Positions 35,287-44,675 of a stretch of DNA of 50,707 nt are shown here, piece by piece. The position numbers and the translations under genes were made by a program. Within the stretch, counting starts at the first letter, position 1, and the number at the start of each line of letters is the position of its first letter. The notes under the pieces were generated by a model. It worked only from the letters and a program-made list of their open reading frames with translations. It had not been told where the DNA came from and made no database searches. The stretch is from Methanohalophilus euhalobius. GTDB taxonomy: Archaea; Halobacteriota; Methanosarcinia; Methanosarcinales; Methanosarcinaceae. The stretch is taken from assembly GCF_900215215.1 (NCBI RefSeq), contig NZ_OBDR01000012.1:1-50707 (forward strand), written 5' to 3'.

Positions 35287-36423
35287 TCAAGATTGGTTTA
35301 CAACTGCATCCAGATCCGCAAGAAACATATCTATAATCTCATTATCCAGATGGGGCATGATAACCAATCTTAGTGCCTGCGGATTTCTCGTAAGAGAAAC
35401 ACGCCATCCAAAATCCTCGTAAAGTCTGTTTTGGATTTCAACTGGTGACTCTACATCCAGAGCCACGATATTCATCACCGGTTCTATCACCGGCTGGATT
35501 CCTATATTCCTAGCTCCTGCAACAAGCCTGTCAGTCATATCCATACATCGTTTTACGATGGCACCATAACCTTTCCTTCCAAGATGGCGCATAACTGCGT
35601 AAGTGGATACTACAGCTGCTCCACTACGGGTACCTGTGAGGGAATACTGACTGCTTACAGTAAGATAAGGGGTCTTTACCGCCAGATTGTCAAGATCAAG
35701 ACTGTGGCGCAGAAGCAATCCTCCTGAAGGAATGGTACTTAAACCCATTTTGTGGGGATCTATTGTTACAGAAGATACACCTGCGATTTCAAAATCAAAT
35801 TTATATTTAGGTTTGAGGAAAGGCAGCACAAAGCCCCCGAAAGCCGCATCTACGTGGAAAGGTAAACCCTTTTCGATAGCTATGCCAGAAAGGGTTTCAA
35901 GAGGATCTACCTGCCCGAACTCGGTAGTACCAGCTATACCCACCAATCCTACGGTATTGCTATCTATCAGGGAATTAACTGCATCCGGATCCACCTGTAA
36001 ATTGTCAGAAAGAGTCGCTCTGCGTATATCTATACCTGAAAGATCACCAACCTTATCAAAGGAAAAATGAGCTGAATCAGGAACAACAATGTTAGGATTT
36101 ACAATTGATTTATTACGATTACGCATAGCTCTTACAGCCTGGATATTTGATTCAGTACCTCCTGTACTGATATAACCACAGGCATCCGGAAGATGTAACA
36201 TATCACCCAGCATCTTTACGACCTGTTCTTCCAGTTCAAAGGTTCCCTGAAAAAGACCTGGATCTCCCATATTAGCTTCGATGAAAGTACAATGAGCATG
36301 CTATGCTATTTCATGAGGATAAGTGCACATGGAACTCAGAACTTTCCTGTAATCACTATCCCTGTTTTTTTTTTGAGATAGTTCCTTTAGGACTGAATCT
36401 CTTGTGATGCCATTGTTATACAT
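35287..36423 (-). CDS. mfnA: Tyrosine decarboxylase MfnA with in-frame amber codon (possible pyrrolysine)
   Basis: PLP-dependent L-tyrosine/L-aspartate decarboxylase, which supplies tyramine for methanofuran. Core motifs: [28 protein letters not shown], and the PLP lysine K225 in [16 protein letters not shown]. Read from the internal ATG 36270 the product is only 327 residues and lacks the family N-terminus. From ATG 36423 (AAGGATT upstream, box A near 36451-36460) the frame reads [15 protein letters not shown] ... [13 protein letters not shown], then TAG (36301-36303, codon 41), then [17 protein letters not shown], exactly the conserved MfnA N-terminus, and gives 378 codons. No other lesion is seen. 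Either UAG is decoded as pyrrolysine, or a point mutation created a pseudogene or N-truncated enzyme. Confidence 0.85.
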
Positions 36424-36512
36424 GGGAATCCTTTTCCTAGAAGAGCTTTTTAATTATAATCGTTTTGAGTTAGATTTGATTTTGAGATTTTTAAAATTTC
36501 AGGAATTGCTAG

Positions 36513-36812
36513 AGGGGCACCCCATAGTTTCTATTGGAAACATAGTTCAATTTGAAAAAAGGGATTTTTGTAAAACAAAGTTTTATATACTAAAACCTCT
36601 CTACTTACACTGCTATATTTTTTCAACATATTAAAAATATGTATTTCATATTTTTTCCTTATCTCCAGTTGAAACCATAGGGTCTCTCCCCTTTATAAAC
36701 TTTCCAAGCGAAACAAAGGGGGTCTACCTTTTTTGTCGTTTAAACATTTCTAATATCAATCCAGAATATTTAATTTATTTTATAGGTGCAGTTGAAACAA
36801 AGGGGTCTTTAC
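36513..36812. other. Replication origin (oriC) with four ORB elements
   Basis: Origin-recognition-box-like repeats sharing GAAAC-N-A-GGGGTC: one on the minus strand (36513-36541; TCCAATAGAAACTATGGGGT) and three on the plus strand: 36663-36688 (CCAGTTGAAACCATAGGGTC), 36703-36728 (CAAGCGAAACAAAGGGGGTC) and 36788-36812 (CAGTTGAAACAAAGGGGTC). Between the opposed boxes, 36545-36660 is very AT-rich (TTTTATATACTAAAA, ATATTTTTT, CATATTAAAAATATG) and fits a duplex-unwinding element. It lies directly upstream of orc1/cdc6, as in most archaeal origins. Confidence 0.88.
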
Positions 36813-43427: not shown

Positions 43428-44675
43428 ATGGCCGAACAATCTGCTCATGAAAAATATGAATTCAAGAAAAAACTTGAATCCCTCCGAAATAAAAAGGGAA
43501 GGGGTACTGAACTCATATCCCTTTACATACCGCCTGACAAACAGCTGTCCGATGTGACCTCACAGCTTAAGACTGAACACAGTCAGGCTTCCAATATAAA
43601 ATCCAAGGTCACAAGGACCAATGTACAGTCTGCGATTGATTCGCTGCTTTCCCGACTTAAATATCTCAAGATCCCGGAAAACGGTATCGTCTATTTTACC
43701 GGAGCTGTGGATGTAGGTGCGGACAAAACGAATATGGAAACCACGATCATAAAACCTCCACAACCTCTTACCATCTACAAGTATCACTGTGATTCTTCCT
43801 TTTTCCTCGAACCGCTGGAAGGTATGCTCAAGGAGGCCAAGACCTACGGTTTGCTTGTGCTTGACAGAAGGGAAGCCACAATTGGTTTACTTACAGGTAA
43901 ACATACCGAATCCTACCGAAATCTTACCTCAACGGTGCCGGGTAAACAGAGAAAAGGTGGTCAGAGTGCTCAGCGTTTCCAGCAGTTGAGGCTCATAGCT
44001 ATACATGATTTCTACAAGCGTATAGGAGATGCAGCCAGTGAGATCTTCATGACGGTTGATATGAAAGATTTTGAGGGAATATTGCTGGGTGGGCCGTCCC
44101 CAACCAAGGAAGAATTCCAATCAGGAGAATTCCTGCATCATGAGCTGCAAAAGAAAATACTGGGCCTCTTTGATGTGGCCTACACCGATGAATCAGGATT
44201 GCAGGAACTTGTCAATGCCGCAAGTGAGCGACTGCAGGACCTGGACCTGATGGTGGAAAAGAACCTGATGCAAAAGTTTTTCAGGGAACTGGTATCTGAT
44301 TCCGGAAAGGCTGCCTATGGTGAGGAAGTAGTGCGTCAGAACCTGATGATAGGGGCCGTGGAAAAACTGTTGATATCCGAGGATCTGAGGTCTGAAAGAA
44401 TTAAGGTCAGGTGCACTACCGGGGATTATGAAGACAATATAACCCGGGAAAACCAACCGGATCAGGAAAGTGTAAATGATTTTGGCAACTGTCCCAAATG
44501 TGGCTCTTCCCTGGAAGTTGTCGAAAGGATAGATATTGTGGATGAACTCTCGGAACTGAGCGATCAGATGGGAAGTGAGGTGGCTTTCATATCAACTGAT
44601 TTTGAAGAAGGTGGCCAGCTTCTCAATGCTTTTGGCGGTATTGTTGCGATATTGCGGTATAATACAGGTATGTAA
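43428..44675 (+). CDS. prf1: Peptide chain release factor aRF1
   Basis: 415 residues, eukaryote-type class I release factor for all three stop codons. Stop-codon recognition motif NIKS (56-59) and catalytic GGQ (177-179 in KRKGGQS context) are both intact; the C domain contains the zinc-like CPKCGSS. Relevant to the amber codon in mfnA: in pyrrolysine-using archaea this factor competes with tRNA-Pyl at UAG. ATG 43428 is preceded by GGAG. It probably forms an operon with argS, which starts 9 bp downstream. Confidence 0.96.
   Translation: MAEQSAHEKYEFKKKLESLRNKKGRGTELISLYIPPDKQLSDVTSQLKTEHSQASNIKSKVTRTNVQSAIDSLLSRLKYLKIPENGIVYFTGAVDVGADKTNMETTIIKPPQPLTIYKYHCDSSFFLEPLEGMLKEAKTYGLLVLDRREATIGLLTGKHTESYRNLTSTVPGKQRKGGQSAQRFQQLRLIAIHDFYKRIGDAASEIFMTVDMKDFEGILLGGPSPTKEEFQSGEFLHHELQKKILGLFDVAYTDESGLQELVNAASERLQDLDLMVEKNLMQKFFRELVSDSGKAAYGEEVVRQNLMIGAVEKLLISEDLRSERIKVRCTTGDYEDNITRENQPDQESVNDFGNCPKCGSSLEVVERIDIVDELSELSDQMGSEVAFISTDFEEGGQLLNAFGGIVAILRYNTGM

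Follow-up and report, generated by a model that had tools for sequence, protein, structure and literature searches.

Pyrrolysine in non-methyltransferase proteins

Very few pyrrolysine proteins beyond the methylamine methyltransferases are established. Thg1, the tRNA-His guanylyltransferase of M. acetivorans, contains an amber codon that is read as pyrrolysine and has been attributed to neutral evolution (Heinemann et al, 2009, as summarised in PMC2933860), and an amber codon in the citrate synthase of M. mahii (Mmah_0479) has been suggested to encode pyrrolysine as well (PMC3017947). For Methanohalophilus portucalensis MttB, pyrrolysine at UAG has been measured by mass spectrometry (PMC4928046). 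According to reviews, no RNA structure is required for the decoding of UAG as pyrrolysine (PMC2933860, PMC9499178).

Here, we analysed a window of 50,707 nucleotides (the whole stretch of DNA under study) from Methanohalophilus euhalobius. It contains mfnA (35287..36423, minus strand), the predicted gene for the L-tyrosine decarboxylase that converts tyrosine to tyramine in step 1 of methanofuran synthesis. Our analysis argues that this mfnA is intact and that the UAG at its codon 41 is very probably translated as pyrrolysine by tRNA-Pyl (CUA) charged by PylS.

The mfnA frame is interrupted by a single UAG

Read through, mfnA comprises 378 residues and ends in TGA; the only interruption in the translation of the minus strand is the TAG at codon 41 (36303-36301), directly after PHEIA. 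The read-through product matches the MfnA equivalog TIGR03812 over residues 8-374 with 522 bits (cut-off 299), and both D222, P223, H224 and K225 (the DPHK motif with the PLP-binding lysine) and H119 and H190 are invariant in 47 relatives. By sequence as well as by fold, the nearest solved structure is 3f9t, the MfnA of M. jannaschii (also PDB 6jy1), which has family and fold in common with our protein (TM-score 0.95, 41% identity) but carries an Arg where codon 41 aligns, and in which the pyrrolysine system plays no part. An AlphaFold2 model, in which pyrrolysine was entered as lysine, reaches a mean pLDDT of 95.8 and places codon 41 in a confidently modelled helix (residues 38-46).

The start signals that the sequence-only reading had described for mfnA hold in part. 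A possible ribosome site is present 5' of the start codon and is modest (AGGA, 36429..36432, minus strand; AAGA in M. mahii). A candidate TATA box, TATATAAAA (36581..36589, minus strand), is indeed seen about 160 bases upstream and is kept in six species, yet its assignment to mfnA is unproven: it lies in the gap between mfnA and the divergent cdc6 and could instead serve cdc6. The second intact mfnA that the same reading had named as grounds for doubt was not found, the Pfam cut-off of the decarboxylase family being passed in a genome search at the mfnA locus alone.

Distribution and age of the UAG codon

When mfnA was compared at codon 41 among sister genomes, five others were found to have the same TAG (36301..36303 here, minus strand) in an identical context, the six Methanohalophilus genomes including strain RSK, M. 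profundi SLHTYRO and M. mahii. A search with the read-through MfnA in 112 Methanosarcinaceae genomes gave a match in 107. An internal stop occurs in six of these matches, all from Methanohalophilus, and in none of the other 101, of which 93 cover codon 41 and eight are partial and end short of it. Conservation of the TAG across species excludes a fresh nonsense mutation, which had been considered initially, and a sequencing error at codon 41 is excluded because six independent genomes carry the codon.

In G002 and G005, which branch deeply within the genus, codon 41 is GCA or GCC and encodes alanine. The column is variable in other archaea, with mostly Val, Leu, Ile or Ala, and with Gln, Lys or Arg in several lineages. 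The gene order of divergent cdc6, mfnA and an M50-CBS protease recurs in G002, G005 and Methanococcoides, which argues for vertical descent of mfnA. Horizontal acquisition had been suspected from the 61-64% identity to G002 and G005; it was rejected on account of the shared gene order and of a comparable divergence of PylS (66-69% identity). The TAG would most simply trace back to a single event in the common ancestor of the six species.

In M. profundi, mfnA has an extra T in a run of T at about codon 58, approximately 17 codons past the TAG (L039 near 3045), which shifts the frame. The insertion is either an error of sequencing or a sign that mfnA is broken in this genome.

Selection on both sides of the UAG codon

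Codons 1-40 (36304..36423, minus strand) encode a conserved N-terminus that is under purifying selection equal to that on the rest of mfnA. The pN/pS ratio is 0.132 for codons 2-40 (six species) versus 0.125 for codons 42-378 (five species; an earlier comparison of the downstream part had suffered from the frameshift in M. profundi), and the wrong frames of the 5' part give 0.64 and 1.64.

These values bear on the proposal, made in the sequence-only reading, that UAG terminates translation, which then resumes at the ATG of codon 52 (36268..36270, minus strand), resulting in a 327-residue MfnA that lacks the N-terminus. This ATG is in frame and found in all six genomes, and the longest standard open reading frame listed for the locus is 35287..36270. 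However, codons 2-40 are selected at the protein level in the same way as the remainder, no ribosome site is seen before the ATG, and a restart would lose the invariant Met32 and Asn51 together with the nearly invariant Ser31, Cys33, Thr34 and Pro36. Codons 42-51 (36271..36300, minus strand), which extend from the UAG to the next ATG and contain no start codon, would fall outside both products, yet they retain the family motif, with amino acid changes among the six genomes at His42 and Thr46 only. Because the stretch between UAG and ATG keeps the family sequence, and given the codon-level selection upstream of the ATG, we consider a restart at 36270 unlikely.

Pyrrolysine decoding machinery and identity of residue 41

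A search for pylTSBCD had been proposed as a check, and the cassette proved to be complete. A tRNA-Pyl with anticodon cta (contig C7, 4310-4381) is followed by pylS, pylB, pylC and pylD, each of them above its NCBIfam cut-off. Within the 1.14 Mb read from this genome, tRNA-Pyl is the only CUA tRNA, and pylS is present in all eight Methanohalophilus genomes. No special RNA structure was found 3' of the mfnA TAG (z = +0.56). The release factor aRF1 (43428..44675, plus strand), the sole full-length gene for peptide chain release factor 1 that was detected in the genome, has the NIKS and YxCxxxF motifs and therefore exhibits no obvious loss of UAG recognition. It is encoded in the same window as mfnA, and the first motif reads QASNIKS in context.

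The pylB gene itself ends in TAG, both here (L118 near 6748, G000:C7) and in M. mahii, and 39 further open codons overlap the start of pylC. This TAG is possibly a site of self-regulating read-through, or else a genuine UAG stop, of which there are few.

Alternatively, a suppressor or near-cognate tRNA might insert a standard amino acid at codon 41. Gln, Glu, Lys or Trp codons, mostly single-base neighbours, stand at TAG sites in sister genes, and some lineages have Gln or Lys in the codon 41 column; against this, the pyl cassette is complete, no CUA tRNA other than tRNA-Pyl occurs in the 1.14 Mb, and pyrrolysine has been measured at UAG in Methanohalophilus (PMC4928046), which makes a standard amino acid very improbable. 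Least credible is that mfnA is a pseudogene and methanofuran is made by another route: although M. profundi mfnA has an additional one-base insertion and gene decay does occur in Methanohalophilus, for instance in citrate synthase, five genomes contain an mfnA without other defect and under strong purifying selection, the genome has no second family member, and real decay, as in the citrate synthase remnants, is characterised by missing stretches and a mixture of TGA, TAG and TAA, unlike mfnA.

Under the pyrrolysine reading of codon 41 we infer pyrrolysine as residue 41 of MfnA, efficient read-through and a role for the full-length enzyme as the tyramine maker. At codon 41, tRNA-Pyl would outcompete aRF1 and pyrrolysine would be inserted; the resulting full-length MfnA would yield tyramine for methanofuran. 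Given the few UAG gene ends and the normal-looking aRF1, some termination at codon 41 is possible. From our analysis, the most likely route to this TAG is near-neutral capture, the route also suggested for Thg1 of M. acetivorans; it is the simplest account because several other lineages accommodate long residues in the codon 41 column. An ancestor common to the six species would already have used UAG mostly as a sense codon when a substitution at a variable helix position created the TAG, and pyrrolysine would have been tolerated there. Conceivably, pyrrolysine 41 even contributes a function of its own to MfnA.

UAG codons across the genus Methanohalophilus

The use of UAG was surveyed in this genome (1.14 Mb) and in M. 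mahii (1.6 Mb) with a periodic coding model, which required that the frame score best among the six on each side of a TAG. A first census of conserved read-through frames was dropped because it let in too much, its third-position test being passed also by antisense frames of real genes, and a relaxed list contains likely false entries (G000 C18:315974; 17888 and 17996 in the window; M. mahii 926798). Long coding-like open reading frames end in TAG in 12 of 783 cases in this genome (TAA 365, TGA 406) and in 19 of 1,036 cases in M. mahii (TAA 490, TGA 527). TAG thus accounts for approximately 1.5-2% of the ends of long genes in the two genomes, and several of these ends are internal, namely in mtmB, mtbB, RuBisCO and KsgA.

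In this genome, internal TAG codons are found in two mtmB genes, in mfnA, in the archaeal RuBisCO large subunit (L134:7390-8838; G000:C18:208527, plus strand; GAA in M. mahii), in an iron alcohol dehydrogenase, with the TAG inside the Fe-ADH domain (L135:4861-6036; G000:C18:225874, minus strand), in a GDP-mannose dehydratase-like epimerase and in a PPK2-like gene. In M. mahii, internal TAG codons are found in mtmB, mtbB, an acyl-CoA synthetase, citrate synthase, a CoaD-like cytidylyltransferase (L191:10753-11259, minus strand; Gly in this genome), KsgA (L230:17879-18694, minus strand; Gln in this genome), a photolyase-related protein, a PAS histidine kinase and an MFS transporter. Pfam backs the names RuBisCO, Fe-ADH, epimerase, MtbB, acyl-CoA synthetase, KsgA, photolyase-related protein and citrate synthase as well as the cytidylyltransferase fold of CoaD, and in several of the genes the Pfam domains extend across the TAG; the names MtmB, PPK2, PAS kinase and MFS are our interpretation of the sequence. 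Counterparts in sister genomes often have an ordinary codon at the TAG site (CAG, AAG, TGG or GAA).

An acetyltransferase-like gene has an internal TAG that is conserved between this genome (G000:C18:219829, plus strand) and M. mahii (935422, minus strand). Next to mfnA, it is thus a further candidate for a pyrrolysine gene of long standing outside the methyltransferases.

Because TAG ends are few and partly internal, UAG appears close to a pure sense codon in the genus; in these genomes it looks like an almost fully reassigned codon. There remain a few TAG ends that are conserved and followed by short extensions, and a small number of UAG codons, such as that of pylB, probably still end genes. 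The original suggestion that mfnA is a pyrrolysine gene is therefore supported, but not its status as a lone exception, as many genes in the genus have sense-like UAG codons.

Consequences for methanofuran supply

Methanofuran is needed in the oxidative branch of methylotrophic growth, and the pyl genes should therefore be needed even on methanol. The dependence of methanofuran supply on pyrrolysine is a logical consequence of the pyrrolysine reading and is, as such, a prediction; the dependence would extend to several other genes. We consider it quite possible, if somewhat doubtful, that UAG is in effect fully reassigned and that the pyl genes are essential for all growth, beyond growth on methylamines, via MfnA (and via CoaD, KsgA and others in single species). 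If this is true, the essentiality of pyl would lock pyrrolysine into the core proteome. Mutants of M. acetivorans that are unable to read UAG as pyrrolysine exist (Mahapatra et al, 2006, as cited in PMC4928046); unlike these, Methanohalophilus is predicted not to tolerate the loss of pyrrolysine decoding, even on methanol. As the only gene for this early methanofuran step, mfnA offers a clean way to test whether drift can make the 22nd amino acid indispensable. In addition, standard annotation may truncate or discard TAG-containing genes in Methanohalophilus.

Comparison with known pyrrolysine systems

MtmB, MtbB and MttB share organisms and decoding genes with mfnA, mtmB having a TAG in this genome and mtbB in M. 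mahii. In these methyltransferases pyrrolysine is catalytic and ancient, whereas the MfnA column is variable and is occupied by ordinary residues in other species. Citrate synthase provides weaker evidence than mfnA because, among the genomes compared, its TAG occurs in M. mahii only (G007:C1:499571-500668), where the gene is otherwise intact, the site is sense in G003, and the gene has decayed to fragments in three sisters (G000:C11:17796-18029; G001:C13; G006:C1) with mixed stop types. The TAG of M. mahii citrate synthase may reflect early decay instead of pyrrolysine.

A limited literature search for pyrrolysine together with mfnA, or with methanofuran and tyrosine decarboxylase, found no link, which is weak evidence. 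Kivenson et al. reportedly described, in Science in 2025, archaea with a 'Pyl code' that assigns every TAG codon to pyrrolysine. Like Methanohalophilus, these archaea are said to end genes with TAG very rarely and to use it as a sense codon in many genes.

With Thg1 of M. acetivorans, mfnA has in common that a non-methyltransferase gene contains an in-frame amber codon. The amber codon of Thg1 is reported to occur in M. acetivorans only, and pyrrolysine has been physically observed in it, whereas the mfnA codon is fixed in six species and its pyrrolysine is predicted. Non-methyltransferase pyrrolysine proteins are accordingly a kind already known; what would make mfnA unusual among them is that its putative pyrrolysine codon appears fixed across most of a genus and lies in a central cofactor enzyme.
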